Assembly (NCBI RefSeq): GCF_000003605.2
Contig: NW_003142308.1
Location: forward strand, 408,162 to 440,410
Direction of reading: 5' to 3'
DNA: 32,249 nucleotides
Origin: Saccoglossus kowalevskii
Lineage: Eukaryota > Hemichordata > Enteropneusta > Harrimaniidae
The notes under the pieces: generated by a model
Database searches by the model: none
Told to the model about the DNA's origin: nothing
Seen by the model: only the letters and a program-made list of their open reading frames with translations
Part shown: in pieces, positions 7,711-32,249 of the stretch
How positions within the stretch are numbered: the stretch's first letter is position 1
Layout: every line of letters begins with the position of its first letter
Made by a program: the position numbers and the translations under genes

Positions 7711-8133
7711 GCTCACTTTAACATCTCGAGGTATGTGACTCGCACGATTGACAGATGTAAGCATTTTATTTTGGGTAATTAATTTCTTATCAATAATGTA
7801 CTTGTTTATGTTGAAAATTACACTGTTATTGTGTTGGATCATGTGATTAATGGTTGTAGTAAGATTTTTGTTAACCCTAATCTTGTCAGACCCATGTATT
7901 TTTACATTGACTTGACAACTTAAAGGTCACTGTGGTTGTGGTATTGATTAAAACATTTGTTTAACAAATAATATGTGGTTTTATGAGCATACGCATGATT
8001 GATGCAACAATATTAAACGGTGTGTGCATTTCATTGATTTCGCTGTGCTAGACAGTAGACACTATGATATCCCATTGTACAGTAAAACGGTTGAAGTTAT
8101 ATTGCATCTCAAATAAAATAAAATATGCTATAA

Positions 8134-9198
8134 AAATCTATCCCATAAATAATGGCAGGTAATAAAACACTGTATAATATTTTCCACATCTCCATACTAT
8201 TGCATTACAAATCCTACTTGTCTGGGTTGGTCGATTCAACCATATTGAATTGTTGACATGGTGGTTGACAATGTCTTAATATAGTAATATGCTCGCGGTT
8301 TTAACATAGAATAGAATATACTCCAAATTTAGTAACGGTGTTACCAATGCAGTCACTAACCCTAAATATGACAAATCCAGGGTGGATATTAATGGACGGT
8401 AATTATTTAAAGAAAGGCGAAATAAATACAGACAGAATATCAAATTCATGATCCTACTTATTAATACCAAGGCCCTGGACATACGAACATTAATGTGTTT
8501 GTTAAGTATCTGTGATTTTCTATTTAAAAACATGACTTTTCGCTAACATTCACCTCATAGTGTGTACCAATTATATACATGTTTGTGTCTGCTGGCTTCA
8601 TAGTGTTACTCCCAAACGCCTGTTATTGTGTGAAAAACATGGGTAAATATAGCTTTTGAAATTTCGTTGAGCTATAAGAAAAGCTCATTATCATCACTCC
8701 TATAAGAGTTTAACTTATTTATTTTGTTGTTTTACTGGTAGTTTATTTTAGTAGCATCTATGTCACTGTTTCACTTGCCAGAGTTCTTTCGTAACTTTTT
8801 TTGCATTATTCATATACATGTCACTGGTCATACCTGACGTCGTCACTGGTCATATCTGACGTCGTCACTGGTCATATCTGACGTCGTCACTGGTCATATC
8901 TGACGTCGTCACTGGTCATACCTGACGTCGTCACTGGTCATATCTGACGTCGTCACTGGTCATATCTAACGTCGTCACAGATCATATCTGACGTCGTCAC
9001 TGGTCATATCTGACATTGTTTTGACCCCTTTACCATGAATATCAAGCGTGATTTATACCTGTCCGTAATCAAATATTTGACATGTAGCCAGAGCGCTGTC
9101 ACAGATTGCTTCGTTATTTTATTAAAGAAGTCTTTAATGGTGTTAATGATGTTATGGATCACCCAATAAGTATTCTGTTCTAACATCATTAACGCCTT
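8134..9198. other. Segment private to unit 1
   Basis: Between two blocks shared with unit 2 (7,711-8,133 and 9,199-9,250), unit 1 carries about 1,065 bases where unit 2 has only about 150 after its (TA)n tract. The segment includes a 22-bp minisatellite and a 9,131-9,204 stem-loop. Either it was inserted in unit 1 or it was deleted from unit 2. No terminal repeats were recognised. Confidence 0.6.
8821..9014. repeat. Minisatellite, 22-bp unit, about 8.8 copies
   Basis: Eight full units begin at 8,821, 8,843, 8,865, 8,887, 8,909, 8,931, 8,953 and 8,975, with a partial ninth from 8,997. Each unit holds TCACTGGTCATA followed by CTGACGTCG, and unit junctions create TGACGTCGTCA. Only a few substitutions separate units, so the array is young compared with the duplication it sits in. 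Confidence 0.97.
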
Positions 9199-9204
9199 TA
9201 AAAG
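9131..9204. other. Stem-loop, 16-bp main stem with 26-base loop
   Basis: GGTGTTAATGATGTTA (9,139-9,154) pairs with TAACATCATTAACGCC (9,181-9,196) with one G-T wobble. After one mismatch the stem continues for five more pairs. The loop is 9,155-9,180. An adjacent short palindrome TTAAAGAAGTCTTTAA lies at 9,122-9,137. The size is compatible with a small hairpin RNA or a decayed transposon palindrome. No expression evidence is available. Confidence 0.6.
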
Positions 9205-10239
9205 CCTTATGCTCTTCTGTATATCTACCAAAGGAGAGAATTATACATTGAATAGTATTCTCTGTGTGAGAGTTCACATTATATTATAGCATCATACAAC
9301 ACCTACACGCTATGGATATTGAGTGCATTACATCACGGATTGAGTAGTTTTCCCAGTAGGGACTAAGAATGTTTCACCTCCAAGACCCCTTGAAATAAAA
9401 TCGCGTGTTATCTAGCGTCATGTCTATATATCATAGTGAAAAATTATAATTAATTATATTTCGCCTCTATGCCCAGCTTTAGAGTGAAAATTTTATTTAA
9501 ATATTTTTTTAATATTTTGGTATAAATTATTGTTATGCATTTATTTTTAAAATAAAAATGTACCTAAATTGTTTAATGATTCACAAATCATACAAATAAA
9601 TACATACATAGCTATTTAAGAATGCCCTTATGTGAATAACTATAAGGGTAATTAGGTTTTTTGTTTAATTATTTAACAATTGATCTGAAAATTATCAATA
9701 GTACTGCTTACCCGATTTGCCTAAAATGTTCAACTATAACTGAAATATGTATTAGTATTTTTTTTGAACAGAGGGCGCAATGAAAATTGTATTTTGACCT
9801 ACCCTCTTTAAATATTTGTTAAATAAATAAATTGCAAAAAATAAAAATGCATCTCCTCAATACAATGGGTTTTGGCACTACAGTAGTACGTTTTTGAAAT
9901 AAAATGACTGAAACTTACATGTCACATGTTTTTGATTTAATGTAATTACGCTTTGTAAATGCTTTCATATAACACATACTTTTGCGCAATTTGACCTTTA
10001 TAAACCAATTTCCCAAGATTTGATTTCGAAATAGAGGTCAGTTTCCAAATGTCTTGTTCAAGTATTAAAGTACTGATCGTAACAGACTGTCGTGTAGGTA
10101 TTACTTTAAACTACAGCTTCAAGATTTGTTCTATTTGTGTATTTATGTTGTTGTCCACTCCAGCACCTGGTACATCATTATCAACACAACCATTACAAAT
10201 GTGAATGCATAAGCTGGACTAATAGTTTATTGCACAATT

Positions 10240-11590
10240 GAATAACTAAACCGCTGATAATAGATTAACCCTGTTATGCTTTCTGATCAAACACACCAAC
10301 TATCCTTATGTCTGGTAGACCTGCAGACACCACAGCTTTGTGTCAATTCTTAAGCTGATAACATCGTCGGACGGTTGTCTACGTTTGGCAATGCGGTCAG
10401 TGGCAATACACACTAAAGAACAGGAAGGAACAGATCACCTCCATAATATCTCACCACAATATCTACTTCCGATTTACTACAGTCAAAGCAGCAATATTTC
10501 CATATATTATTCAATTGTGGAGACTGGTTCGATGGCAATCAAGAGCAAAAAACAGCTCATTTTGTAATTTTGTATATTTGTTTCACACTGTCCACCGACA
10601 ATGAAAATACGACAAAAGTAAATGAAAATAAAAACTATTTTTGAATGTTCTGCAAGCATTGAGTCGTTGACAGCTGTATCTGCAAATGTGTTTCCATCAA
10701 TGCCATAAACATCGTGTGGTTATCACATGAATTTTAAGTGTAGTTAAGTTTTGATATTTAGCAGTTGATGTGATAACAATATTATCAGCTGATAATTCAG
10801 CTGTCTATTCATTGAACTGGTTCATACGATTGATTCAATGGGATAGCATGAAAATACAGTACAACCAATGATATCAGATATCTTACAGTGTATAACTTAA
10901 CATAATTATTACTTTATGTTTGAATGTGAGATGCCAGTTTCTAGGCCGAAATATTCATTTCTCAGTGTATATACATGCAATTCACTTTCTAAAACAGACA
11001 CACACATTGATACGTTACACTCTACTACAGAAACGAGGCTTAATGAACCACGACTGTTAGATTACAATGGATTGTCAGACCATGTAAAAATACAGTACTC
11101 AGTAGACATTCAAGACAAGTGTTATATTGTACGTTACTGAGCATGAGCTGAATGTTCATTGTGTAATGAACATGTGCAGGAATCCCAGGTGTACTCTCAT
11201 TTACATAAAAACAAGAGAATACATTAGAACGACATACGCCGGATGTTTCTATTCTAAACTATATACATCGAATTTGCGCATACATTAAATTGCTCTTATT
11301 CTTCCATTACAGCTGAAACCAAATAGGCACTAGGGTAATGGAAATGCCAATTCCTCACATATAATGGATGGGCGAAATGGATGTGTTCATAATATAACAC
11401 ATATTGACAAAAACTATCATTTATTATGCATTAGCGCATCGAGAATTCCATCATCGAGGGTACAGTAAAAATACAATAAAAAGTGATAGAGAACCTTTTA
11501 ACAGCATGCTATAGATAACACTTCTCACTTGAGATATCAACAAAAAGAGATGATGTTGGAAGTCATTGTAATGACACCAGAATAATCACC
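10240..11590. other. Unit 1 segment without a clear counterpart
   Basis: I could not align this stretch confidently with units 2 or 3; unit 3 has only about 380 bases between its flanking homologous blocks, half of them microsatellite. It contains a perfect 16-bp palindrome ATTATCAGCTGATAAT at 10,781-10,796. Frames of 74-75 codons at 10,340 and 10,916 have no recognisable domains. Confidence 0.5.
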
Positions 11591-12599
11591 GAATAATAAC
11601 ATATGGATTGAAAGAGGACAGTCAAGTTGTAACTAAATCATGCTACATGTTAGTCTTGGTATCTTTAATATGTTATCTAACGAGTGTCATCCCACCCCAG
11701 ATCAAAATACCAAAAAAAGTCCTAACTTCGGCATACATTATAATTATTATTTGAATGTCGACATATTTTGTTATTCCGGAATGTATTTTGTTCCTGAATG
11801 CAGTGTATATAATCCAGTCTGCTGTTCTGATAGCCTATTCTCAGTCGTTCAGATGTTAAACCTACGTGGTCTAGGTTTTGCCTTTTTCACTCTTGTGTAG
11901 AGGAAATGTCACTCTACCAAATCAATTTAATGGGATACCAAATTAAAGAATATATCACAAAATGACTGAATAATCTGAGTGGTATTACTAACACTCTGAG
12001 GGATAAAATCAAAGTAACTGGTGACCCTTGAACAAAGCCGTTGAGTTAATATACTGTGTGCAGAGAAAGGAATTCTCTCGAAGCAACCCGACTTTAAGAG
12101 TCCATTAGCAATTGTGGTAATAGAGTAGAATTCCCACGTTGTGTGTCATTTTTAAAGTGTTTTAGGGTTCGGGCAATACCACATTGTATATTTTAACATC
12201 GTAATAGCATAAACATTGCACTATTGTTGCAAAGGCCAGTACCTGTATCTACTTATAACAGATGTGTTTTATAAACTGTGTATTTTAGTGAGTTTGATAA
12301 GGATATGCATTCGAATATGACTGAGTAATTCAAAACTGCAGTCGTCTGAAAGTAAATGAGCAATGAGTCACCATTGTTTTTCATTCTATAAATAGATCAG
12401 TGTATTTCGACATTTGAACAAGATTGCATACTTCAGTGCCGATATAATTTTTGGTGCATCTGCCCTACTTCATCAGTTCATTAAGCTTTAATATCATGCA
12501 ATTTGATCGAAGCAGGACACCGAAGGCTATTGCAAATAGACTGCAATACACACCGAGCAGGACGTCAAGCGTGTAGTCGATAACACTGTGGCGTCATGT

Positions 12600-12613
12600 A
12601 ACATTATTATCAG
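12600..12613 (+). repeat. AACATTATTATCAG box recurring in all units
   Basis: The 14-mer AACATTATTATCAG lies in a shared context following GTGGCGTCATGT-like sequence. Related copies occur at 17,479-17,492 and 17,631-17,644 (both unit 2) and 27,504-27,518 (unit 3, ATTACCAA variant). It marks the start of the second half of each tandem unit. Confidence 0.7.
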
Positions 12614-14781
12614 ATGCGCATCAAATGCTGTTTTTTTTTATATTAACTGTGGTTATTGTAATGACAAATAGAAAATAGGCCTACCTTCGGAAAACATGCA
12701 TGCACTCAGATCTACACAGAGGGTTCTTGTTATTGCATTGATTTTCAAGTTTGTGTTTTCCCACGCACTGACATCTTGAAATATGTTGATATACAGGAAT
12801 AGTATTATATAAAATTCAAATGAAAAAGACTGTATTTTCCTTTTTGACAAGTGGAGCAGTATGTTCCCCTCATATATTCTTTGAAAATCATTGATTCAAC
12901 AAAACATTGTTACATATATATCAGTCAGTCGTTTTCTTGTATGTTGCTTTGTGTTTATTTACTTGTACATCACTTACGAATAATGAATGACATAATATTG
13001 ATTTTATACAATTTAACATGGCCTCTATCATGATATAGGATTTTACATAGAACATTTTCAAAGGTTGCCAAAGCTGTATAATGATATCCTCCCTAACCTG
13101 ATTACAAATGCAGGACATTCAAACAGACTACATTAAGAAATAAAAGAGCAAATCCTCTTGCAAGAAAACGCCTGCCAATTTAATTCTTTAAATCTTTCGG
13201 GAAGTCCTTCGTGACATAAAGATATTAGCCATACACAAATTACAGGTATCATGTTGTGGGAGATAAATAGATGTATATCGTGTAGTGTAGACAGTGTTCT
13301 CTAGTTCTAGTGCAGATTGTATTACATTTGGTCATTGAGTGAATTAAGCACCCGCCACATTTGTCGCAGTTACAGACCAGCGCATATAACCAATCATGTT
13401 TTCAGGCGATGTAACCAAATGTATTTTGGGCACGATTATATTTTCTGTTTTTACTTAATAGCACCCTGTACTAAACTCATTCTACTTTACCAACGTTGTC
13501 ATGTGCTTACATTGGGTTACATTAAATAATATAATATACATTCATGCCATAAATAAAATTTGGTATCATCATTGCCAGATTAATTTTCCAGCGAAAACAT
13601 TCCAGCCACGCCATCCTTAAATCGTATATTTGTGTATTACCAACAACAAGAGTGAAAATCACTGGGATCTGTTATTTAGCAAATTAAACGTAAGCAGGTG
13701 ATGGTTAGTATCTATGTTGACTATACTGCCTTAGAAATTACAATTCAGTGTTAATAGTGACAGGTCATCAATAAAAGTTAATGGTAGATTTGAGTACATA
13801 TCACCATTGCATCTCAGCCTTTATAATTGCAACGTACTCTCCTAGAATACAAGATGAATACTGCAATGCACGTCATCCAGATAAATCAGCTGTAATCCAA
13901 AGTCGAAAGTTGTCAATTATTAATATAAGATGATATAATATATTTTTACTAATTGCGTTGACTACCTAATTGTGTCAGTACTCGACTTATAATAATTGTA
14001 CGCACTGTCACCCGGCAGTAGTGATCAAGTCGTTTTTGTGATCAAGTCAAAATGCGTGATGAAACATCCCACCGATTGACGATAAAAATCCTATTTGCAA
14101 CATTTAAGAATAATTTCTTTTTTAAGCTGAAGCTATGACCTGGTTACTGGAATGGACACACTACATCATTCATATAAAATCACAATATAGCATTTACACT
14201 GCTGAGACGTAACTTGTCAGAATGAAAAGTTTTATACATACATCATTCAATACCGGTGGCAGACCAATACAATTACAATGCGTCACTTGGGCACAACGTG
14301 TTTACATTATTACACCAAGGTGTACACTTGATGTTTCATACAACACCTGTTTTGACAGCGCTCGAAATCCAGTGTTCTGTCTTCATTCAACAAATATGGT
14401 GGCAGACATCTCTTCTAAATATTCTGCATAATATGTATCTGTACATTTTTTCAATCTCCGACTGAGTCTTTGAAAAGACCTGGATATTTTTATCGAGGGG
14501 TGTTATGTTATGATATACGCTGCGTAATATGGGCAGCTCCCGAGGCGCTGTGTCGGATGGCTTGATATTCAAACATTATTGGCAGTTTTCAACATAAATA
14601 CCAGTCTCAACGTGTTGTCTCTAACAACATTATTATACCGTATAGACATGTAGATGTAGACATATTATATGATGTATTGAAAATATTATTGCAAATTACA
14701 AACTTTTACTATAATGTTCCTAAAGAAATTGCGTTTTGAGTAGACGTAAAAGGGCGTTGCGATTACATCATTTCATGAATT

Positions 14782-14929
14782 GAATCTCTGTGGAATTTCA
14801 ACTGAACAGGTTGTTCCATTATTGTCTACATTGAGAATAATTAACTAATTTATGTGATGTCCTGTATTCTCTAAGCGTGTATTACATGAACGTCCCTGAC
14901 CTGGAGGTCTAATTCGACATTACTAGGCT
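14782..14929 (+). repeat. 148-bp block, 96% identical between units 1 and 3
   Basis: This block matches 30,759-30,906 without gaps at 142 of 148 positions by my count, whereas flanking parts of the duplication are visibly more diverged and gapped. It contains TGACCTGGAGGTCT at 14,897-14,910, invariant between copies: two AGGTCA-like half-sites in everted arrangement spaced by two bases. Both strands lack a long open frame. It may be a constrained non-coding element, a gene-conversion tract or a chance slow patch. Confidence 0.75.
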
Positions 14930-15940
14930 TAAAATAACCAATGCCGAGTGGGTGGTTTAACAGTCACGTTGTCAGATGACAGACTGACAATAACGAATAT
15001 ATTTTCTATCAATAGAGGAGCGTTTACAGAAGTTACTGTTTAATTATAAAGATGAATTTAGAAAAACACTATTTCCGTGCTGCGTTTACATATAGAAGGC
15101 TTTTAAATTAGGTTTGTTTGTTCTTTGCCATACTGTACCGAACGTCATAACGTAATAAATTAATATGTAAATTTATACACCCTGCCAAGTATATATATTG
15201 CATGCATGTATGTTCCCATAAAACACACTTACTATCACTGAGGTCGTAACACTGTATGACGTTTATTCATAGACAAGTCGTGTTAATAACACCATTATGT
15301 ACATCTAATATTCTGGTTTTATGGTTCATGACATACTATGTCTGAGATCGCCAACTATGACGACATTTACACAGACTGCCCAATGCTTTATAGGGAACGT
15401 TGATGCGAACTGATTGACTTCAGCAGGCTTAATTAAATTACATCTTTAGTAGAGCTACTGTTTTCCTATGCGCTGTATTTGTTGTGTATCCCAAAATTCA
15501 TTTATTTCTACCCACTCTAATATCACAACAGTTGCGACTCACTCAAATAGCAGATGCATTCCACTGAAATAGGTGTTTTATTTTGGGTTATTAATCGGTT
15601 ATCAATAATGTACTTGTCAATAACTGGTTAGTGCTTACTACTATGCCATGACATGAACGTGACTGTTACTGCATTGGAACAATATGATTAACGGATTTGT
15701 CCTAACCATAGTAGTTGCTTTTGTTACGGTGGTTGAGTTATTGATACATTTGTTTAAAAATAATATGTAGTTTTTATATGCATGTGCAAAAAGGAAAGTA
15801 ACATTATTAAACTACGTGTAAATGTCAATAATTTCCCTGTGAAATAGAGTAGACAATCAGATTAGGAAGATACACATACTAATATCCAACTGTACAAAAA
15901 GACGGTTGAAGTTGTTATATTGCATAGCAAATAAATTATG

Positions 15941-15941
<1 letters not shown>

Positions 15942-15993
<52 letters not shown>
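15942..15993. repeat. (TA)n microsatellite, about 26 repeats
   Basis: A pure TA tract. It sits just after the sequence AAATTATGC that in unit 1 (about 8,121-8,133) is followed by a non-repetitive TATAAAAATC. The expansion therefore arose after duplication. The open frame running through it simply encodes alternating Tyr-Ile and is not a gene. Confidence 0.98.
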
Positions 15994-15995
<2 letters not shown>

Positions 15996-18331: not shown

Positions 18332-18354
18332 TATATATATATATATATATATAT
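18332..18354. repeat. (TA)n microsatellite, about 11 repeats
   Basis: A short pure TA tract in unit 2 directly after the shared GAATTGAACACC. The equivalent positions in units 1 and 3 have CACCCGCCACATTTG or CACCCGTCATATTTG instead, so the tract is private to unit 2. Confidence 0.95.
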
Positions 18355-19377
18355 CTGAACCGTATTTTTCATGAGAAACAGAATTTATTCGTATCCTGTA
18401 TCAAACAATCGCTGCTTCATATACGTGTGCAAGTGCTCACACTGTGTTACATTATAAAAAGATAATTATAAGTAATCATAGTTAAAAATCATATATACGG
18501 GTATTATTATAAAATGTCTCTTCAACATTAATTTTCATCATGTCTGTCCGCGAACATATTCATTCCAGGCTGCAACCATCATCAAATCGTGTAATTGTGT
18601 ATTTCCAACAACAAAGGTTTCAATCATTGGGGTCCGTTGTTCAGCAAATTAAACGTATGCAGGCGATGTTTAATATCTATCATGATTGTATTGCACCGGG
18701 AATTACAATATCGTGACAGGTCAAAAGTTAATTGGAGATTTCAGAACTTATCATCTTGTCTTATAAGCCTTAATAATTACAACGATGACCAAATCAGCCG
18801 TGACACTAATTTGATTTTTTTTAATTATTAATTTTAGATTATGATTAATTGTAATACCGGGCATTATCTGTGCATTCATGCTGGCGGCACAGCCTGGCAA
18901 TAATAATTTTAAGTGGACGTAAGACTAAATTTAGCCTTTAGAAAGATTCGTTAATAATTGTACGCACTGTCGCCCGCAGTAGTCATCGAGTATTTTCCAG
19001 ATCAATCAAGATATTTGACGAAACAGCTCACCGACTGACAGTAATGCTCTTATTTGCCGCATTTATGTAGAATTTAACGCTTTTCAGTTATAATACTAAA
19101 ATGAACCCACTACACCATATTGGATTGACCGTTTACATAACATCACTATAGTGGGTCTACTGAGAATTGATTAGTTACGTGTCAGAATAAAAAGTGCAAT
19201 AAATACATTAATCCAAAACGGCATGGCAGATAATATTTGGTAATAGTTGTAATGTGGAAAATCGTTACTGTGGTTGTGATATTTATACATATTGATGGTG
19301 TAAAAAAGTATATGTACATGCGTATATACAAAAGAAAAAACCGACAAGTCTCTGAAAATGGAACATTCGTATCATCG

Positions 19378-19491
<114 letters not shown>

Positions 19492-20143: not shown

Positions 20144-20331
<188 letters not shown>

Positions 20332-20905
20332 ACGTTTGTTAAACAATTTATTAGCAAAGTTGGAACTTTAATCACTTACATTATTTTGTTTGTTTAATAT
20401 TGTTGACAGAATGTTTATTCTTCTGTTGTGCCAAACAAGACTGCTGACATTAACTGTCTACTTGTAACTCTTCTTGCAACCCTAAGTCCCCTGTAATATC
20501 ACTACAGCCGAACAATCGCTAAATAGTAACATATGGCTAAAAAAGAACACTCAAGTTGTAACTAGATCACGCTACATGTCCAGTCATTGTTACTGATCTG
20601 CTGAGTGTCACTCTACCAATGGATCTTAAATTACCAAGACAGTGTTAATCTGAGCATTTTTTGAATGTAATTCACTTTGAATTCAGCCTACTGATTGTAG
20701 ACACCAAATAATATTCAGACGTTATTATACTTGTTTCACTCTTGAAGGGAATGACACTTAATTTAATAGGATACCAAATTAAACAATAATTCGCACATGC
20801 TGAATAATCTGAATGGTATTATTAGTATTATTGACAGTGTGAGCGATAAAATAACAGTAATGGGTGACGCTTGAACAAAAATGAGTCATTATACTGTATA
20901 CCGGC

Positions 20906-21974
20906 AAACAACAGTTTTTGATTCGAATTAAACAAACGTAAATCATGTGTGAGAGCTGAGGCTAGCATGCATGAATGACATTTCTATGATATCTTTATTC
21001 TTAATTTTTGAAGAACAAAAAATAAAGCTATTTATTGCAAATAAAATAGCAATTGAAAATAGTTATTGCACAATTCTTGATTCGCTGATTCGTTGATTCT
21101 TCAATTAGCCTTACCCGTTGAAGGCTTCATTTGTTTTGAGAATACGAAGTCCAAAAACGGGGCCTTATAATTCGGTCTCTGTCCGTGCGTCCGTGTGTCC
21201 ATTCGGAGTCATATTTCAGAATCATTTGGACTGATTCCGTTCATTCTTTGCATGGGCCTATTACTTTATGTGGGACATATGCACATGCAGTGGTTTAGCG
21301 ATTCGATTCAAAATGGTAGACTGGCAGCCATCTTGTTTTTTGAAAATGTTGTATTTTGGATATGCTTTGTAAGTATTCATTAAAACTTGGTACATAGACT
21401 ACATAGACAACTTCTTTCGCAATTGGATCAAAGATGGCCGACTGGCAGGCATCTTGTTTTGTTTTTAATGTGGTATCTTGGACTTGCTTTGCCAGTTTTC
21501 ATTCAAATTTGGAACATACTTTCTACATGTTAGGATACATGTCCATGACATTTTGTTTCAAAATCGGATCAAAATCAAAAAAGAATGGCCGATTGACAGC
21601 CATCTGACTTTTTGGCCTTACTACTATATTCCAAGATTTATGTACCATTTTTATTCGTATGTGGCACATATGACCGAATAACGGCTGTTTTTATTTTTGG
21701 CCATATTACTATATCTCTGTCACCCATGTATCAATTTCATTGATATTTACCATTTCATAAATGGATACATGTACATGTCAATTCAATTTGCAATTTGATC
21801 AAACATGGCCAACTGGCGGCCATCTTGTTTGTTCAAAATGTGATGTTTTTCTTTGCTATGTCTTAAACCGGAGGGGTCGTCACGCAACACATGTTCAAAT
21901 TTCATGTAAATAAACAATGTGTTGTATACGCCACTTGGGACTCAAGTTTCATGGACATGCTCGCAACAGCTCCT
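20906..21974 (+). repeat. Dispersed-repeat-like segment with recurring ATGGCC...GGCCAT motif
   Basis: From about 21,140 the text changes character. It has a CTCTGTCCGTGCGTCCGTGTG stretch at 21,178-21,198, then four spaced copies of a motif like ATGGCCGACTGGCAGGCATC at about 21,313, 21,434, 21,584 and 21,805. These are embedded in partly repeated text (GATCAAA before the motif, CATCTTGTTTT after it, and CTTTGCCAGTTTTCATTC-like spacers). The motif is an imperfect inverted repeat, best in the last copy (ATGGCC...GGCCAT). Spacing is irregular (121, 150, 221 bases). I read it as a decayed tandemly organised repeat or part of a transposon. It is absent from the homologous point of unit 1. Confidence 0.6.
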
Positions 21975-22604
21975 TCACATTAAAGTTGCATTCCCACTTT
22001 GTAAATATTTTTACAATAATATATATAGATTACTATGAGAGGTATTTGAAGTTACAAAAGTGTGCAAATAACAAGAAAACGACGCTGAAACTCTATTTTA
22101 GGTGGGCCACCTAAATTATTAGCCGAAGACCAACGAACAAACATCGGCGCGCTTTCCATTCCAATCCACATCTGACCAATAGGGTGAAGGCAATTCATCT
22201 CAACACCCCGACTGCCGCTAATAAATTTTCAGACAATTTACGTTCACCACTTTAATAAGTGCACATTTGGGGGTGAACTATCAGGTGAATAATAATACAC
22301 AAAATATTTGGTGAATGTGTTATGCTGTCTGGCAAGTCAAATACCCTGTGTGAATAGAATTTAGAGTAGAAAACAGCGTACAAATCAGCGTACAATGTCA
22401 AACTAGAAATAGTGTTCGATTGTGGAATGGTGGTCGCCGACAATGATCGGAACGGTTCAGCAGTGACCGGGAAAGTTCGACTATTCGCATGTTTGGCCAG
22501 ATTTCTCTTTATAAGTGTACTTTCGTTCTTTCAATTATCACTGATAGGAATTCATATATAGCATTTAAAAATGTTTACAAAGTGGGAATGCAACTTTAAT
22601 ATGA
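21975..22604. mobile_element. Non-autonomous element with 39-bp terminal inverted repeats (630 bp)
   Basis: The 39-base arm at 21,975-22,013 is the reverse complement of 22,566-22,604 at 37 of 39 positions. The shared core reads ATTAAAGTTGCATTCCCAC. The 552-base interior has no coding frame. Terminal inverted repeats around a short non-coding interior indicate a MITE-like DNA transposon. I cannot define a target-site duplication, because the right end runs straight into retrotransposon gag-like sequence. It may have inserted into the Gypsy copy or provided its 5' junction. Confidence 0.7.
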
Positions 22605-23317
22605 CGAGCACAAAGAGAACTTTCAAAAAATTTACAGGGACTGTGTCATTTTCAATGGCTTGTATTTATTGTGATATGCATAATTTGAGAGAGAGTCAAC
22701 GCAAAGAGTGTTTGCTGGCAATGTTAAATGGACCAGCTTTACAGTTATTAAGCACGGTTGACATAGCACAATATATAAGAGTTTATGTCACCGTTTGGCC
22801 TCACGATTTGGTGTTATAGGTAAAAGAGATATTAGTCGCTTGAGTTTAAAACACACCTAAATGAGGGTGTAAGTTTACGGAGTTTGGCTCAAGATATACG
22901 TGAGATGGTTGTTATTGATTACCCTGAAACTAGAGGGGAGATGTTTGAACAGATCTGCATATTTCAATGCTATAGATACGCCTGAAATCCGCCGTAAAGT
23001 GAATGAGACAGCTAGAAAGCCAGGATGTTTGTTTGACGATGTAGTACGTGAGAGCACACATACGGAAAACTATTTGACATAAACCAAACCTGGCTCTGAT
23101 TTGAAGAATTTGCCTGGTATTAGAATTCTTGGTAACAGTGATAGTGGCCCTGGTCAGCTGTCTGATTTAGTTGGTGTTGTAAAACAGCTACAACAATGTG
23201 TAGGAATACTGAAAACCGGGATTGTGACTTCCGAGAGAGGTCAAAAGGTCAAACCAAAATTAGAAAGTATGTTATGCTTGTCAGCAACCTGGTCATTTTC
23301 GTAGGGATTGTCGCACC
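22605..23317 (+). pseudogene. gag: Gypsy gag remnant: capsid region and CCHC zinc knuckle
   Basis: The first part (to about 22,770) reads RTFKKFTGTVSF and then ESQRKECLLAMLNGPALQLL, typical of the capsid start in metazoan Gypsy gag. It continues in other frames at 22,805-22,855 (RFGVIGKRDISRL) and 22,859-22,982 (SLRSLAQDIREMVVIDYPE), then 22,983-23,080 (EIRRKVNETARKPG). A complete CX2CX4HX4C knuckle, CYACQQPGHFRRDC, is encoded at 23,270-23,311 and ends at a stop. Gag would package the element RNA; here at least three frame changes prevent that. Confidence 0.88.
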
Positions 23318-23466
23318 TAACAAAACCTAGTGATTTAAACACCGACCTACTGGGTGTGGTGGTCAACCCCCAGTCCCAGTAAAACAAAACAAGGAAAGTG
23401 AGCAGACCCGGGAAATCTGTCACAGTAGTGTCTTGGGGAAAGTTACAACACGTTCAATGACCAATA

Positions 23467-23726
23467 ATGAAAATTGATGTGGTAAAACAAGATTGTTTGC
23501 TGATTCATGGTGTTAAAGGCCGTATTCAAATAGACACTTGGGCTACCGATTCGTTTCTAGCTGAGCATTGGCTTTTGAAAGTACCAGAAACGGAAAGACC
23601 ATAGCTGCAGGTGGTCAGGGAGCCAGTATGTGCTTTTGGTGCATGCATGTCACTTTATGTGGTAAAACGGTCGAAGTACCGACATATATTGTTGAATTTG
23701 AATCTTGGGATACCAGTGATCTTGTG
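23467..23726 (+). pseudogene. Gypsy aspartic-protease remnant
   Basis: A frame from the ATG at 23,467 reads KIDVVKQDCLLIHGVKGRIQ and then the active-site region at 23,533-23,544. There the aspartate and threonine are present but the third position is Trp where the family has Gly. A stop follows near 23,602. A second open part (about 23,611-23,722) encodes VTLCGKTVEVPTYIVEF, consistent with the flap half of the domain. The linker towards reverse transcriptase (23,726-23,935) contains RSTGSFENGIGVCHAVV. The protease would cleave gag-pol; this one is doubly disabled. Confidence 0.72.
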
Positions 23727-24169
23727 TGGTCCATGAACATGAGGTGAATTACACTGCTTGTGTTATGCCAATTCGGTCTACTGGTAGTTTTGAAAATGGC
23801 ATTGGAGTGTGTCATGCTGTTGTATATCCATGGAGTGCTAGGATTCCAATCCGAACACTCAATGTGACTCCCACTGACCAAAAACTTAAAGCTGGGATGG
23901 CTATCGCACTTCTTAGGGTACACAGATAGGGTCTTACCATACAGTCTCCAGCAGGAATCCTTGGCGGATAAGAAGGAAACCATTGTAAAAATCATAGTAA
24001 TGAAAGTTCTATTAGTACACCTTCTAGTACTACTAGATCTAATTCCCTTCAGGCAAATTCAGACGATTTTGAAGCACTTGTGCCGAGTCATCTTAAGTAG
24101 CTGTACAGGAAGAGTAGTGTGGGTTTTGGATACAAGGGAAGAAACAACAGTTTGTTGATTTGTTGGTCA

Positions 24170-24880
24170 AATCTTCTGGGGTCTTTAGTTATGATGGTAA
24201 GGATTTAGTTAAAGTGGATTTGATAAAACATTAGATAGTAGTAGACAGAAAATCAGTGCGACAAGCTCCATACCATACTCCAATATGGAAACACAGGGAG
24301 ATTGAGAGACGAAAAAGATCTTTCGGATAGGGGCTTAATTGAAGAGTCGGTCAGCCATTGGGCCTCCCAGTAGTCTTGGTCCAGAAAAAAGATAGGACAC
24401 AGAGGCTGTGCATAGACTATCATAAACTAAATTCAGTGAATGTCCAGGACAGCTTCCCTCTCCCAAGGATTGACGATAATATGGAATCACTTTATGGGTC
24501 GAAATGGTTTTCTACATTAGATTCACAATCAGGATAATGGCAAATTGAACTTGCGCCGATGTCTAAACCTTGCCTTTTGTACGAAAACTGGGTTATACCA
24601 GTGGAAAGTGCTTTCATTTGGCTTGACCAATGGTGTAAGCACTTTTGAAAGAATTATGGAGCGTTGTTTCAGTGGTTTGTCATGGAAAATCTTAATCGAG
24701 TATCTGGATGACATTATTGTATTTGCCAGAACGTTTGAGGAGTTGAAACGGTTAGAATTAGTTTTTGACCGGCTACAACAGACAGGGCTAAAACTAAAAC
24801 CTAACAAATGTGTGCTGTTTGCCCCTGTAATTGAATTGTTGGGTCACAAAATGTCGGAATATGGGGTTGAGTCAGATCCT
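24170..24880 (+). pseudogene. pol: Gypsy reverse transcriptase remnant
   Basis: The N-terminal part at about 24,370-24,560 reads VLVQKKDRTQRLCIDYHKLN and then WFSTLDSQSG, with the first catalytic aspartate. It is interrupted by a TAA at 24,535-24,537, where the family has an aromatic residue, and by earlier stops near 24,232 and 24,330. After a frameshift around 24,560 a long frame continues to 25,249 with WKVLSFGLTNGVSTFERIME and the catalytic box YLDD at 24,701-24,712 (IEYLDDIIVFARTF). The palm motifs are therefore retained although the chain is broken. Confidence 0.93.
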
Positions 24881-25401
24881 AAAAAGGTGGACGCAACACG
24901 GCATTGGCCTACAACCAGTTCTGTGACAGAAGTTCGTTCTTTCATTGGTTTGGTCTCATACGGCATACGTTTTGTTAGGGGGTTCGCAGAACTAGCACGA
25001 CCCTTGCATGATTTAACGAAGAAGAATGTTTTCTTTGATTGGACAATGCAATGTCAAAACGCCTTTGATAGTCTGAAGGATGCTTTGACATCTGTTTCCG
25101 TTTTGGCATTTCGATCTGAGGATGAAACTTTTATACTAGATACCGATGCTAGTGGTTGTGGCATATTGTGTGACCAGAAAATAGTTGCTTGCAGTTGTAA
25201 ATTATGTCAAATACTATCGCCATTATTTGTTGGGAAGAAAGTTCACACTTAGGACAGATCATGCTTCTTTAATGGTTAATGCGATTCAAAAATCCTGAGG
25301 GTCAGCTGGCTCGAATTATTGGATTGAATCATTGCAACAATTTGATTTCACCATTGTCCATAGTCCGGGCAAACGTCATGGCAATGCAGATGCATTAAGT
25401 C
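24881..25401 (+). pseudogene. Gypsy connection and RNase H remnant
   Basis: The frame through RT continues with EVRSFIGLVSYGIRFVRGFA (tether) and DTDASGCGI near 25,138-25,165, which carries the RNase H first acidic residues. The middle of the domain appears deleted. The rest is in another frame: FTLRTDHASLMV at about 25,240-25,275, then, after a stop, FTIVHSPGKRHGNADALS ending at 25,400. Domain order and motifs match Ty3/Gypsy RNase H; the deletion and frameshift make it non-functional. Confidence 0.85.
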
Positions 25402-27031
25402 AAGCACCTACTTATAGATGTAAACAATGTGATCAGATGCATGCTAGTACTAGTATCTCTAAATGTGATTCAGATTCGGATAATCGATCTAGTCAGAAAG
25501 TTACCTCATTGAGCCCATTAGCTTCTGAATATGTAGTTGGTCGGGATGTTGTAGGAGTTGGTAGTACTGCTGTAATACCCCCTGGAAGGGTGATGATGGT
25601 ATGTCGAGATGAATCCAAGAAGGGAGGTGAGACGAATGGGCAGTCAGATGTTGGTATTTTGGTGCAATACCTGACATGGACCCACATTGAACTCCGGGAG
25701 AAACAGCATCAGGAGGCTGGTATGAGCATTTTAATTTCTGCTGTTAAGCATGCTATGCAAAGACCTGCGTGGAAGGAAATTTCTGCATTTTCTCCTGGGG
25801 TAATAATGTGTTGGTCTTCATTTGATCATCTTCGTGCCAGTAATGGTGTTCTTCATAGATTGTTTGAAAGTGCTGATGGTACGCAAGTGACCTGGCAGCT
25901 GTATTTGTCCCTACACTGTAGACAGCAGGTGTTGCATGGACTGCACACAGCTAAAGCAGGTGGACATTTGGAAATGGATAAAACCCTCTCTAAACTGAGA
26001 CAGCGGTACTTCTGGTATAAAAATGAAATCTGATAACAGAGCATATATCAGATCGTGTGATGTATGTGCACGTCGTCAGAGGCCACAAAGACATAAGAGA
26101 GCCCCTTTACAATCCTACCTGGCTGGCTACCCGGTAGAAAACACAGCAATTGACATCCTTGGTCCTTTCACGGTAAAAAGAACGTGTTTTTGCTGACTAC
26201 TTTAGTAATTGGTTGGAATGCATTCCAGTGAAGGATGATGCTAAAGCAATGGTTGATAATGTGTTCACTAGGATTGGTATGCCTCGAGAGATTCATTATG
26301 ATAAAGGTAGAGATTTTATATCCACGGTTTTCAAGGAAGTATGTCAGTTATTGGACATTTCTAAGACCTACACTACACCACGCCACTCCACCACGACGGT
26401 TTGTTTGAAAGACATATGAAGGTTATTGTTGGATCGATTAATACTTATCTTGATCCATTGGCATAACAGCATGACTGGGATCAGTATTTACCCTATGTCA
26501 GCATGGCTTATAGATCATTTCTCTACAGGTGAAACTCCTAATTTGTTAATGCTTGGCAGAAAGGTATGTTTGCCGGTTGACTTAATGTTTGAAAGTAATG
26601 ATCCTGATGCCATGGCACAGACAGACTATGTGACAGATCTGAAATCTAAGTTGCAGAAAGCGCATGACTGGGCTAGAGAACAGGTGGCAATAAGTGCCCG
26701 TGTCCAGAAGAAACACAATGATCGGCACTTGAACAGACAAGGTTTTCAACCTGGAAAATTTGTATGGTTAAAGGAAGAAAGAAGGAGAAAGGGGTTGAGT
26801 CCAAAATTGCAGCTAAACTTTGAAGGGCCTTACTTGGTCATAGGTAGACTTTCAGATGTGGTGTACAGGATTCAAAGAAGCCCTCACAGTAAGTTTAAGA
26901 TCGTCCATTATGAGAAGCTGAAGAAATATAATGGAAACCCACTTTTCGCGGAAACATTGCAATCCATATATGGGAATAGTACGCGTATAATTTCTCTTAG
27001 CCTATTACGTGCTGATTTTGAAGTCACGTGA
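25402..27031 (+). pseudogene. Gypsy integrase remnant (HHCC, DDE, GPY/F)
   Basis: The zinc-binding part is visible as HTAKAGGHLEMDKTLSKLRQ (to 26,033) followed, in another frame, by CDVC at 26,056-26,067. Catalytic residues can be located: first Asp at 26,152-26,154 (AIDILGPF), second Asp at 26,300-26,302 (IHYDKGRDF), and Glu at 26,408-26,410 (GLFERHMK), the last in a shifted frame. The final frame, 26,426-27,031, encodes the C-terminal domain with GPY at 26,825-26,833 and VVYRIQRSPHSKFKIVHYEK. I see no chromodomain after it. At least four frame breaks exclude activity. Confidence 0.9.
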
Positions 27032-27449
27032 TCGAATTATGAGGTCATCTTTATTATCTGCTTAGTTTTTCTTTAGTAAGCGTGTGTTGTAGTTTTGAAG
27101 CGGTACGACGAAGAATACAGTTCTTTGCTGTTTATTCCTGAATGGTGTGTGTGTCTTCATTGATTACGTCCACGTTACCATTCCTCGACGGATGGGAGTG
27201 CACTGGTTGATTGTGGTAGTCAAAGCGAGATTTTTGCTGGTTTTGAACCGGTGTCGTCAGTGAGAGTCGATATCGACCATTGATTTGGTGCGAACAATGT
27301 CAGTTTGTTACAGGGTGATACAACTTGTGAGAGACTGTCCCTGAAATACTCTGAAATACCCTGAAATATTTCTCTTACATTATCATTGCTCCACTAGATA
27401 AGTTTAGATAAATTTTGATACCAGACAATTCAATAAAATAGTATATACC
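27032..27449 (+). other. Non-coding tail after integrase, possible LTR remnant
   Basis: After the integrase stop come about 290 bases ending near TTTGTTACA (about 27,306-27,314), a typical kind of LTR end, but no polypurine tract and no upstream copy are evident. Three imperfect copies of CTGAAATAC lie at about 27,340-27,372. Similarity with unit 1 resumes near 27,450. Confidence 0.3.
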
Positions 27450-27706
27450 GTAGGCTACTGCAAACAAATATGAGGTCAACCTTGTTGTCGATAACATGTT
27501 ATATAACATTATTACCAAATACCGATCTAACGTTGGTTATTGTAAGAGCGAATGGATGAATGCATGCTCTTAAGCCTACACCCGAGGTCTCGTATTGATC
27601 TTTATGATATTTTAAACATGCTGATATACAATAATAGTATTCCCTACTGTGACAAGTGGAGCAGTATGTTCTCCTCATATCGTCATTGATTAAACATAAC
27701 ATTGTT

Positions 27707-28497
27707 CGCCAGCAAAAAACAATTTATTTGGCCATAGCCTCAACATTAACCCTTTGCATATTTCACCACGATTTACTGTATGTCGCGCGCCCTCAAACGA
27801 TTATAAGATTCAACTCGGCTCATTTGCATCACCCAATCAGAACTCATGAAAGAAACCATGTGGAAAGAAACTACACATTTCTTCGGCTGATCTGCACTGG
27901 CTCGGAAGATGAATTCTGATTGGCTAAAAAAACAAAAAACTTGTGGCGTTGAATGCACGTTCATTGTCAGTATTGTTATGCAAATTCAAACTAGCTAATC
28001 ATTTACAGCCTTCCGAGCCAGTGCAGATTAGCCCCATTTCTTGGTAAAATTAAAATGGCGGAATCAAATAAACGTGTTGCTATCTTTTTTTCTGAAAGAG
28101 CTTACTGTGCATCAAAAGAAAGCACTTAGTGCTGTATCTGAAGAAAATGACGTGTTTGTTGCAAACACAGTATCTCGACTGTGTTGCCGGGCTGTGTTAC
28201 AACGAAACCGAATCGGGCAAGTTGATATGTTATCAGTTTCGACAGTTTTGTCAGTTTACTAAAACACATTCACTTGCCCACAAACAATTTTCACCGTTGA
28301 AATGTGAAATTTTGGAAAGGCCATTGTTTTAATGTTTGATGAGCAACTCTTATTGGTGGCGCCAGCTCCTTGGCGCGCCCAATCAAATGAGTCAATTTAG
28401 CTACAGTGAAATACCGCTTTTCCTAACACGATCACGCACGGGTTCGTGGGCTGGTTATGAATGGCCGGCTTTAGCGAAACTGTGCGATTCGGACGAT
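27707..28497. mobile_element. About 790-bp insertion private to unit 3
   Basis: Unit 3 follows unit 1 up to AACATTGTT (27,698-27,706; unit 1 about 12,903-12,911) and again from CAGTCAGT (28,501; unit 1 about 12,921). Unit 1 has only about ten bases between these points. The inserted DNA is locally more GC-rich and carries inverted repeats, two octamer motifs and several CCAAT boxes. No clean terminal repeats or target duplication were identified, and frames from 28,041 to 28,332 match nothing I recognise. Its nature (transposon, processed or captured promoter fragment) is open. Confidence 0.65.
27822..28031. promoter_or_regulatory. Divergent-promoter-like palindrome with octamers and CCAAT boxes
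   Basis: A perfect 19-bp inverted pair ATCTGCACTGGCTCGGAAG (27,890-27,908) and its reverse complement (28,010-28,028) extends imperfectly on both sides. Around it are ATTTGCAT at 27,822-27,829 followed by CCAAT at 27,833-27,837, ATTGG at 27,919-27,923, and ATGCAAAT at 27,978-27,985. Octamer plus CCAAT is a known combination in histone and snRNA promoters, but I find no histone reading frame beside it. A second CCAAT pair flanks a GGCGCC/GGCGCGCC core at 28,352-28,383. An ATG in good context (AAAATGG) at about 28,054 opens only a short frame. Confidence 0.4.
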
Positions 28498-29117
28498 GGT
28501 CAGTCAGTATTTTGGTTTATGTTGCTCTGTTTTTTTAGACATTCAATGAATGTAAACGTAGATTCTACACAATTCAATTATGGACTTTATCAATACATAA
28601 AATGTATTTAATTGTTAAATGCCAAAACTTTATGACAATATAATTCGCAAAGCTTTCAGTGCCGTGATAAGCAGGACAGTCAGACTAAATTAAGAAATAA
28701 TAAAAAACAGATCCTTTTGTATGAAAACCCTTGCCAATTAAATTATTTCAGTCCTATGGGAAGTACTTTGTGAAATAAAGATGTTAGCCATACCCAAATT
28801 ACTCTTTGATAGGTATGTTGTGGGAAGGAATTAGATGTATATCGTGTAGTGTAGACAGTGTAGATGTTTTGCAATTCTAGTACAGATTGCATTACTTTAC
28901 ATCACTGGAAGAATTGAACACCCGTCATATTTGTTTCAGATACAGACCAGCACAAATAACCAATGCTGTTTTAGGCGATGCATTCTTATGTATTTCATTT
29001 TTTTATCTTTATTGAAAATGGAATTATTCTTACATCTTCCCACTTTACCAACGTTACCATGTGCTCAAATTTGGTTACATTATGTAGGATGCATATATTA
29101 TACATTATGTTGTTAAT

Positions 29118-29125
29118 CCGTTAAA
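29118..29125 (+). repeat. Target-site duplication, left copy (CCGTTAAA)
   Basis: Exact 8-base match to 29,529-29,536 on the other side of the MITE. Confidence 0.75.
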
Positions 29126-29528
29126 AAGGGTGGGCAAAGGGTATTTTCGTAAGCTGTAATCAATCGTTTTTATTCTCGTAATAATGTAGTTTAAAAAAAT
29201 AAAAAAACGTCAATTCGTTGACATGAGCAAGGTGTTAACTGTAATCAGCTGGTTTATTCGTCCGTAATTTGTACGAAGATATTATTTTTTTAAGCATATA
29301 AAGCATTTTCCAAAATGATGCCGAAATTCGTACGCAATTTCCAATTTTGATTCTTAAACTCAAATTATCAAAAAATATTTTAAATATATAAAGTGTAATT
29401 AGAAATTTGCTTTATCTGTAAAGTGTAAAAACCTATTGTTTTACTGTAAATGGAACTCATTTTATTTATCTGTAAACACGTAAAACGCCGTTATTTCCTG
29501 TAACCTGTACCAGCTATCCCTTTGCCCC
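29126..29528. mobile_element. hAT-like MITE, 403 bp, with 8-bp target duplication
   Basis: The element begins AAGGGTGGGCAAAGGGTA and ends with the reverse complement of GGGGCAAAGGGATAGCTGG; the inverted ends share GGGCAAAGGG. It is flanked by CCGTTAAA at 29,118-29,125 and again at 29,529-29,536, an 8-bp direct repeat as made by hAT transposases. Unit 1 (about 13,530-13,560) has continuous sequence without the element. The interior is AT-rich, non-coding, and shows repeated CGTAA words on the left side and CTGTAAA words on the right, resembling subterminal motifs. Confidence 0.8.
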
Positions 29529-29536
29529 CCGTTAAA
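29529..29536 (+). repeat. Target-site duplication, right copy (CCGTTAAA)
   Basis: Exact 8-base match to 29,118-29,125. The assignment assumes the element ends at 29,528; a shift of one or two bases within the C run is possible. Confidence 0.75.
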
Positions 29537-30758
29537 TACGTACTATAAAATTTGTTATTAATATTGCAAGATTAATTTGCATCATGTATGCCTCTTTGCC
29601 GTAAAAACATTCCAGCTACGCTGCAAACCGTAAATCGTATAATTGTATATTTTCAACAACAAGAGTACCAAATTCAGGGATCTGTTGTTTAACAAATTAA
29701 ACGTACGCAGGTGAGGGTAAATGTCTATGATGACTATATCAAACTGAAAATTACAAGAATACGGTGATAACACGTCATCAGTAAAAGTTAATTAAGATTT
29801 GAGTACAGATCACCGTTGCATGTCAGCTTTTATAATTACAACGTACTCTCCAAGAATACTAGATGACTACTGCACTGCACGCCATCCAGATAAATCGGCT
29901 GTTAACCTAAGTCGAATGTTTTTAGTTATTAATACTAGATAACCAAACATTATCTGTATGTTAATGAGGGTGACTCGGCCTGGCAATAACTTTAATTTCA
30001 ACTGTCATTGAAATTGAATTCAGCCTAAGAAATACTCGACTTGGAAATTGTTTAATAGCTGTATGAACTGTCAGCCGGCAGGAGTCATCAAGTCATTTCC
30101 TGATCAAGAAAATGTGTGATGAAACCGATTGACGATAAAAAAAAACTTAATCGCGACATTTATGAATATTTTCTTTGTTTAGACTATATCTATGATCTGA
30201 TTACTGTAATGGACACACCATACCATATTGGGTTGGCCATTCACACATTTCGTGTCAGGATTATAAATACATTATTTCAAATTGGTGAAAGACCATCACC
30301 AATAAACAATGCCAGCGCTCTAAATCCAGTGATCTGTTCATTCAGATGATATTGTGGCTGACTTTTTTTATACATATTCTGCATAATATGTATATGTACA
30401 TTTTCCAATTTCCGACTGAGTCATCAAAGAACCTGGACATTTTTATCAAAGGGTGTTATGTTATTATGTACATTCCGTCACATGGGCTGCTCTCGAGACG
30501 CTGTGTCGGATGGCTTGACATTCAAACATCATTGGCAGTTTTCATCAATAAATCTCAATGATCTGTCTCTAACAACATTATCATTCCGTATGGAGATGAA
30601 TATATATTACTTGTAGTGGGATATAGTGAAACAATGATGTCACAATTTAATGTATTGGAAGTATTATTGCAAATTCGTAACTTTTACTATACTGTTTCTT
30701 ATAAAATTGCGTTTTGAGTAGACATAAGGGGAGTTGCGATTACATCATTTTGTGACTT

Positions 30759-30906
30759 GAATCTCTGTGGAATTTCAAATGAACAGGTTGTTCCATTATT
30801 GTCTACATTGAGGATAATTAACTAATTCATGTGATGTCTTGTATTCTCAAAGCGTGTATTGCATGAACGTCCCTGACCTGGAGGTCTAATTCGACATTAC
30901 TAGGCT
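30759..30906 (+). repeat. 148-bp conserved block, unit 3 copy
   Basis: Counterpart of 14,782-14,929, with six substitutions and no gaps. The everted half-site pair TGACCTGGAGGTCT is at 30,874-30,887. Downstream, AATGCCGAGTGGGTGGTTTA (30,918-30,937) is also shared exactly with unit 1 (14,940-14,959). Confidence 0.75.
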
Positions 30907-31201
30907 GAAACATATTCAATGCCGAGTGGGTGGTTTAACAGTCACGTTGCCTGACTGAAAATATTACAAATGAGTGTTTTTTTTCAATAATATGGTTTGC
31001 GAAGTTTGTTCGCGAGTATTTAAGACTTTGAATTATGAAGATGAGTTTGGAAAAAAATAGGTATCCCGAATTACTATTTCCGTGCTGCATTTATATGTAG
31101 GCTTTTAGATTAGGTTTTTGTGTGTGTTAATTCATTGCCATATTGAACCGAACGTCATAAAATAATATAAATTAATGTGTAAATTGATATACCCTGCCAA
31201 G

Positions 31202-31223
31202 TATATATATATATATATATATA
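31202..31223. repeat. (TA)n microsatellite, 11 repeats
   Basis: A TA tract at the 3' junction of the Penelope-like insertion. Unit 1 has only AGTATATATATTG at the same place (about 15,189). Confidence 0.95.
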
Positions 31224-31356
31224 CATACGGTGATATAGGGATTAATACACAACTACATGAATATTGAAGAAGCTATATGTTTTATAATTCACTGTACCAA
31301 AGAGCATACATTATAAGCTTCGTAAATTAACATATTAAATAAATTGAAAAGAAAGT

Positions 31357-31830
31357 TTAAATGTTACTTATTAGAGCTATTGATCTCAGTCGGCATGATG
31401 ACACGAGTTCATTTCTTTTGTTTAGTGCGGAGTGATGGGGTCTAACAATTATGATGAATTTTTCCTTCAAACATAAAATGCATCGTTTGCTGGAGCTATT
31501 ATACGGGCTACCGCGAGCAAGAATTTTCCATTGTATTTTATATCCAATATCTTTATCTTTGAGTGACCAGACGTGTTTACTTAGTTCTGCCTTATTTCTG
31601 GAAGCCTTATAGCGAAATGAGGCCGTGTGGTTTCTGTATCTTGTTTTGAACTCATTACCAATAAGTCCGACGTACGTTTTGCTGGTGGTGTCTGTCTAAA
31701 CGCGTAACTTCCGCTAGGCATACGACACCAGGCTGCAAACACTTCCCGTCTAGTGGACATGTTTTTTTTTTCTGGCAATTGCATAACTTATTGGCTTTCG
31801 TTTCGTCAGTCGTAGTGTTATTTTCGGTGG
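31357..31830 (-). pseudogene. Penelope-like GIY-YIG endonuclease domain
   Basis: A cysteine-rich entry motif, CNCQKKKTCPLDGKC (about 31,783-31,739), leads into GVVCLAEV. After a frame change comes TYVGLIGNEFKTRYRNH (about 31,675-31,625), the YIG-equivalent with the conserved Arg and His. The frame then runs open through SKHVWSLKDKDIGYKIQW and CILCLKEKFIIIVRPHHSAL, containing the expected Glu, and LNKRNEL, to a stop at 31,357-31,359. The domain cleaves target DNA for priming. Here the 3' two-thirds is intact in one frame, so decay is modest. The first signature position is Cys rather than the usual Tyr. Confidence 0.85.
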
Positions 31831-31859
31831 CGAAAATTTGGTGTTTGGTTTTATTGTTG

Positions 31860-32185
31860 ATGGTATCTGTGATGTTGTTCAAACACAATAGCAGACTTTG
31901 ATTATATTTCTGTTAAATATTTTCTTGGGATTGTTACTGTTAGGAAAGCACTTGTTGATTAGATCCAAGAATCGCTTTCCGATACTGTTGCGGACGTTGC
32001 AGCTATATGGTGAGTTGAACCAAAGGACGTTGCTACGCGGCCGGTTTTTTTACCCTTCTCCGTGAGGGGCTCAAACTTTAATTGATGTTTGTAGACGCTT
32101 TCGCGTAGAGCTCTTTGGTAAGGTGGTGCCGCGATGTCAAACATCTTTTTATCTGACGATATTAAAGAAAGACGCTTGTTAACAT
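31860..32185 (-). pseudogene. Penelope-like RT distal (thumb) fragment
   Basis: From the junction the first frame reads VNKRLSLISSDKKMF and then AAPPYQRALRESVYKHQLKF. After a frameshift near 32,040 the next frame gives NVLWFNSPYSCNVRNSIGKR followed by FLDLINKCFPNSNNPKKIFN. A stop follows near 31,880. The motif pair (NKRLS.ISS.., then WFN.PYS.NV...IG..FL.L..K.FP) is characteristic of the region just after the RT palm in many invertebrate Penelope-type proteins. The catalytic palm itself would lie upstream and is absent. Confidence 0.82.
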
Positions 32186-32249
32186 ATATATACATTGCAT
32201 GTATGTTCGGAACAGCGTGTCGATTTCCCATAAAACTCACTTACTATCA

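Follow-up and report, generated by a model that had tools for sequence, protein, structure and literature searches.

A diverged array of duplicated non-coding units in the 5′ flank of an MFS transporter gene

We describe a series of repeated units in a 32,249-nucleotide stretch of genomic DNA (the window; positions 408,162–440,410 of contig C3327) and in the sequence to its right. We consider it probable, at roughly 70%, that these units, of which there are seven or more with lengths up to ~8 kb, form an old, locus-specific segmental duplication array of non-coding DNA on the 5′ side of an MFS (presumably SLC22-like) transporter gene. The duplication is real and of a well-known kind. As a whole the array is most likely without a function of its own, and single blocks within the units may be cis-regulatory.

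Results

Three collinear units in the window

Positions are given as window coordinates (contig position minus 408,161), with negative values lying left of the window. Three units lie wholly or partly in the window:

7,700–15,498, plus strand: unit 1 (U1), the longest copy (7,799 bp), from self-comparison by BLAST
15,499–~19,250, plus strand: unit 2 (U2), from self-comparison by BLAST
~19,262–32,249 and past the window edge, plus strand: unit 3 (U3), with a tentative first ~200 bp and four insertions

Self-comparison of the window joined U1, U2 and U3 by collinear same-strand diagonals, which bears out the three head-to-tail copies in the same order and orientation proposed by a first-pass annotation of this DNA and reveals an array larger than the one it described. 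U1 and U2 align over 7,700–8,151/15,499–15,967, 9,197–9,700/16,138–16,641 and 12,247–14,263/17,121–19,230, and the tail of U1 runs straight into the head of U2 at 15,498/15,499. U1 and U3 share ten same-strand blocks from U1 9,263 to 15,187 in the masked window, and in the comparison with the contig their shared span runs from 9,216/19,471 to 15,198/31,210. Large stretches between the aligned blocks of the three units have no alignment. Two minus-strand matches of U1 in a TAAA repeat of U3 (20,091–20,386) are taken as low complexity.

Within the masked window, 22 self-hits passed E ≤ 0.01 (18 between different units, 4 inside one unit or insertion), compared with none (seven times) or one (three times) in ten first-order Markov sequences. 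Searched against the contig, U1 produced 33 matches at E ≤ 1e-5, including the two in the TAAA repeat. The control consisted of 7.8-kb pieces from the DNA to the left of the window; of eight such pieces three contained Ns and were dropped, and the five compared with the contig gave 7, 6, 2, 0 and 0 matches.

Two of the three restarts proposed earlier, 7,711 and 15,511, differ from the starts given by BLAST by 11 and 12 bp, respectively. The third, at 19,262, is plausible; it comes solely from a weak MAFFT alignment, in which 24 of 37 (U1/U3) and 25 of 31 (U2/U3) columns are identical, followed by a stretch with 12 of 25 and 10 of 25, and BLAST supports U3 from 19,471–19,514 onward. Pooled over supported blocks, identity is 64% for U1/U2 (1631/2565), 77% for U1/U3 (1743/2252) and 71% for U2/U3 (590/828), and single blocks among the three units range from 57% to 84%, a wider spread than the 70–85% estimated at first. 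Jukes–Cantor (JC) distances between unit pairs differ as well (0.27–0.50), which would fit copies that arose, or exchanged sequence, at different times.

Units beyond the window

The analysis covered contig positions 338,162–500,300, made up of the window and thirteen further stretches. The contig is 500,300 bases long, and the genome has 572,110,611 bases in 4,830 contigs. Its size, the kinds of retroelement and the split transporter gene suggest that this is probably an animal genome. Of the 162,139 bases covered, 20,465 are N, in runs that may be assembly gaps (−54,302 to −54,008, −23,731 to −23,428, −8,351 to 0, 32,250–33,604, 55,536–65,003 and 80,303–80,993). Four further units lie to the right, all outside the window:

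~33,875–37,653, plus strand: unit 4 (U4)
44,652–50,298, plus strand: unit 5 (U5), whose short first match is followed by a 2.3-kb break
50,998–54,776, minus strand: unit 6 (U6), inverted
66,025–72,713, plus strand: unit 7 (U7), from 66,329 at E ≤ 1e-5

The first-pass annotation had anticipated an end of U3, and possibly a fourth unit, just past the right edge of the window, and both expectations are supported. The last 25 bases of the window match U1 from 15,213 with one mismatch (7 mismatches at the next best place), and a unit head matching U1 7,704 begins at 33,875, beyond the N run 32,250–33,604. The passage from U3 to U4 repeats the tail-to-head order, with 33,696–34,283 matching 15,334–15,937 across the U1/U2 junction at 72%.

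Six of the seven units share one orientation at a single locus, and only U6 is inverted. U5 and U6 form an inverted repeat with arms of ~2.5 kb at 83% identity (97% in one block). One control piece shares 44,890–46,249 of the U5 area, which thus also holds a dispersed element.

Copy number across the genome was assessed with one query, the 846-bp tail of U1 (14,353–15,198), and a search tool that passes over very common words; it found three places, all on this contig, within 58 kb and on one strand. To the left of the window, 70 kb were compared as far as they are readable; they contain no unit copy, and their sole match is to a repeat inside the Gypsy-bearing insertion of U3. Exact 24-mer (viral contigs) and 45-mer (genome contigs) searches gave 0 matches, and a distant blastn of 14,340–15,240 against phages and plasmids gave none, in viral and prokaryotic collections that are little informative here. 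Also left of the window, open pieces at −66,090 to −62,913 (plus) and −52,815 to −48,268 (minus) have the look of retroelement genes by eye.

Losses and insertions make the units unequal

Several parts of U1 lack a strong match in U2: ~8,150–9,200, most of ~9,700–12,240 and everything past 14,263. Parts of U1 10,200–11,800, absent from U2 and mostly from U3, recur in U4, U5, U6 or U7, which favours a deletion from U2 and U3 over an insertion in U1. A minisatellite with a 22-bp unit (8,820–9,014; 8.9 copies, 94% matches) lies within a part of U1 that is unmatched in the other units.

Four stretches of U3 have no partner in U1:

20,909–27,386, plus strand: insertion 1, replacing ~390 bp of U1, with decayed Gypsy-type pol pieces
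27,707–28,506, no strand assigned: insertion 2, with like stretches in or beside U5 and U6 (68–84%)
~29,118–29,533, no strand assigned: insertion 3, with a 16-bp repeat, inverted and imperfect (87.5%, E 0.24), near either end
~31,211–32,178, minus strand: insertion 4, with a peptide resembling the endonuclease end of a Penelope-like element

The pol pieces of the first insertion match RVT_1, RT_RNaseH_2, Integrase_H2C2 and Integrase_p58_C, and no pair of long terminal repeats was found within 20,909–27,386. The repeat at ~21,144–22,665 in the same insertion has another copy 55 kb left of the window, and an inverted repeat of ~104 bp (78%; 21,975–22,078 and 22,502–22,604) bounds a ~630-bp stretch left of the Gypsy remnant. 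Given its likeness to stretches in or beside U5 and U6, the second insertion is probably a mobile element, and the third is perhaps a small DNA transposon. The minus-strand peptide of the fourth carries a motif suggestive of a Penelope-like endonuclease, and neither Pfam (above cut-off) nor PDB gave a match for it. The single Pfam match on the minus strand of 31,200–32,249 was below cut-off (DUF2043, 13.5 bits, cut-off 25). U3 resumes at ~32,179, and U7 matches 32,179–32,248.

Conserved blocks

Two blocks of U1 stand out by their conservation:

12,939–13,376, plus strand: core block, matched at least partly in all seven units
14,725–14,975, plus strand: island, the best-conserved stretch between U1 and U3 (92.4% of 250 aligned columns)

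Elsewhere U1/U3 identity is 72.8% (12,939–13,600), 75.7% (13,600–14,330), 82.5% (14,353–14,724) and 75.5% (14,976–15,187). BLAST finds no match to the island in U2, U4, U5 or U6. In U7 its right part alone is preserved, at 78% over 89 bp and at 68% when the longer tail is aligned. We considered the island as proof of selection and set this back in view of the partial copy in U7 and the four units with no match.

Sites at which U1 and U2 agree against U3 are clustered, to a degree reached by 1 of 2000 shuffles; sites of U1 and U3 agreement cluster less (28/2000) and those of U2 and U3 least (62/2000). This clustering suggests patchwise exchange between copies and could also reflect uneven constraint. 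Either process would explain both the identity of the island and the clustered agreement.

Coding and RNA content of the unit

The earlier claim that no shared open frame explains the units held, as no shared long open frame was found among them. Among the units and their left flank, Pfam scans covered U1, 1–7,650, 37,650–47,051, the minus strand of 31,200–32,249 and three Gypsy pieces. In six frames, U1 has no domain above cut-off and one match below it (MetOD1, 16.8 bits, cut-off 23.8), 1–7,650 has a single match below cut-off (ARM_CPL3, 12.7 bits, cut-off 26), and 37,650–47,051, between and in U4 and U5, has none. Pairwise dN/dS was estimated on forced alignments in 111 runs over three unit pairs, and the lowest values (0.06–0.12, U1/U2) came from saturated, poorly aligned runs.

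An array of structured non-coding RNAs was also considered and rejected, with no known family and no stable covarying fold in the parts examined. Rfam gave no match at gathering score across the window and two chance-level matches in 12,400–15,400 (E 0.028 and 4.6, far under gathering scores), and a tRNA search found none. The island folds little better than its shuffles (z −0.87 and −0.56), and local windows of the tails of U1 and U3 (128 in all) showed no notable RNA fold, the lowest z being −2.5. For the alignment of the six-copy block the folding term is −3.86 kcal/mol and the covariation term an unfavourable 1.64 kcal/mol, which amounts to almost no structure.

A unit-tail stretch, TGTCTGAGATCGCCA.CTA.GACGAC, is kept in U1 (15,336–15,400), U6 (minus, ~51,000–51,200) and U7 (~72,600–72,700). 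It is readable as MSEIANYDDIY in U1 and as VSEIAIYDDIYQL in U7, and its start codon is not kept in U6 and U7. Left of the array, on the minus strand at 2,890–3,300, an open exon-like stretch was noticed by eye after a splice-acceptor-like site, with a GTAAGT donor-like site upstream; the minus strand of 1–7,650 has no Pfam domain above cut-off.

The neighbouring transporter gene

An MFS transporter gene lies on the plus strand outside the window, with exon-like open pieces from 73,961 to at least 82,186; from the look of its peptides, it may be SLC22-like. Its first open piece is ~1.25 kb downstream of the end of U7, which places the array on the gene's 5′ side. Of the four pieces scanned, the first has no Pfam match, whereas the other three hit MFS_1 or Sugar_tr, in two cases with scores exceeding the curated cut-off; a fifth piece lies at 81,926–82,186. 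Compared with the 162-kb stretch, the five exon pieces have no copies in the array (next best E 0.30), and the array is thus no series of readable copies of that gene. The suggestion of a segmental duplication whose gene lies outside fits in part: the duplication is there and a gene follows the last unit, while the exon comparison lends no support to the gene's membership in the unit.

Further right, also outside the window, a 319-codon frame at 86,630–87,586 (minus) has a histidine/arginine-rich start and hydrophobic stretches by eye, and no Pfam match.

Discussion

Tandem segmental duplications can be enlarged by unequal crossing over, and on this basis we propose a model for the collinear units, junction order, inversion and missing and inserted parts observed here. 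The segment would first have been duplicated in tandem and then multiplied as its units exchanged unequally, and an inverted duplication could have given rise to the U5/U6 pair. Point changes, deletions and transposon insertions (four in U3) would afterwards have driven the copies apart, with one deletion perhaps fusing the end of U2 to a U3 that had lost its head. The array resembles other tandem segmental duplications in its head-to-tail units at one locus, a tail-to-head junction seen twice and copies that are diverged and trimmed, whereas it differs from them in having no recognisable gene in the unit, in its age (JC 0.27–0.50) and in the inversion of one unit.

Several results weigh against an old, locus-specific segmental duplication array without a dedicated function. 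Seven alignable copies of the core, with pairwise identities of 61–97% in the aligned block (~12,950–13,450 of U1), are a lot for purely neutral old DNA. The best 200 columns of the island (188 matches) were reached by none of 2000 column shuffles and by 3 of 2000 shuffles of 25-column blocks, and its high U1/U3 identity could be selection. A plus-strand frame at 13,587–13,650 has a dN/dS of 0.29 in U1/U3 (21 codons) and 0.27 in U2/U3 (29 codons). Finally, N runs (presumed scaffold gaps) fall between U3 and U4 and between U6 and U7, the order of the pieces U1–U3, U4–U6 and U7 plus the gene rests on the assembler, and further units may lie inside the gaps.

One alternative is that the units are repeated cis-regulatory modules for the downstream transporter gene, with copy number or diversified copies tuning its expression. 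This explanation, which we regard as unlikely, would fit the position of U7 just upstream of the gene's first open piece, the lack of recognised coding content in the units and their uneven conservation, with an island at 92% between U1 and U3 and a core matched in every unit. However, nearness to a gene is weak evidence, the high identity of the island could stem from late exchange, and an island unmatched in U2, U4, U5 and U6 and partly kept in U7 is not constrained in all copies. The regulatory repeat proposed in the first-pass annotation is possible, with a core matched in all seven units and an island present in U1, U3 and, in part, U7.

It is less probable still that the units are a decayed tandem gene cluster, derived from the transporter, an unrecognised gene or a long non-coding RNA whose exons have become unreadable. 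The tail peptides of U1 and U7 are vaguely like the start of the transporter's first exon, but their start codon is lost in U6 and U7, the five exon pieces are unmatched in the array and U1 has no Pfam domain above cut-off. The 13,587 frame has a low dN/dS in two pairs out of the three, and five of the six units share a similar peptide; its signal is weak and is nevertheless the best lead for a putative hidden or decayed exon. The frame is short: its phase is open for 23, 67, 38, 46, 34 and 11 codons in U1, U2, U3, U4, U6 and U7, the other two phases nearby are similarly open (23–51 codons), stop positions differ between units and the peptide is lost in U7. Checking this frame made us rate the decayed cluster slightly higher than before and lowered our estimate for a non-coding segmental duplication array from 0.72 to 0.70. 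If the unit were a macrosatellite or a large dispersed repeat with a chance concentration at this locus, seven copies in 65 kb, one of them inverted, would be accounted for, but we find this very improbable, given that the tail query has three matches in 572 Mb, all here (with a tool that passes over very common words), that no copy occurs in the readable part of the 70 kb leftward and that the divergence of the copies far exceeds that of a homogenised satellite. The satellite-like repeat suggested earlier is unlikely in view of seven diverged units at one place, one inverted, and of a tail query whose three matches all lie on this contig. We give hardly any credence to an assembly artefact in which haplotypes or copies were placed in series. 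The near identity of U5 and U6 in places (0.97 in one block) and the N runs between array pieces would fit it, and the assembly possibly contributed to that pair (83% over 2.5 kb, 97% in one block), but U1–U3 lie within a single N-free stretch, 23–36% of their aligned sites differ, as do their missing and inserted parts, and haplotypes in series, a doubt raised at the outset, are excluded for these three units by their 64–77% identity.

With a non-coding segmental duplication array as the preferred reading, several known systems offer points of comparison. The duplicated conserved noncoding elements of vertebrates, reportedly described by McEwen et al. in 2006 as accompanying duplicated genes, are similar as paralogous non-coding blocks possibly kept by selection; here, by contrast, the copies lie together beside one gene. 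Macrosatellites and other large tandem repeats, such as DXZ4 (PMC6985041) and a 7.3-kb tRNA repeat that binds CTCF and is reported to have 9–43 units per allele (PMC4041453), likewise consist of serial units of several kb, whereas the present array has seven strongly diverged copies, one inverted, instead of many near-identical units. Duplications of a GATA2 regulatory region, reported as the cause of hereditary facial paresis (PMC10335940), are alike in being a copy-number change of non-coding DNA near a gene, and differ in their reported effect, whereas any function of the present array would be putative. Our literature search, made with no species name to search by, found no such array named, and we make no claim that it is unpublished.

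Overall, even if the array is ordinary, it explains an odd window of three units, one of them trimmed and another both trimmed and swollen by four insertions. We think it rather doubtful that the array is a long-lived set of duplicated and diversified enhancers upstream of the transporter gene, with blocks kept, exchanged or lost. Seven copies in which no gene is readable, diverged at a quarter to a third of their sites and still alignable, would offer a chance to learn which non-coding blocks persist when copies are redundant.

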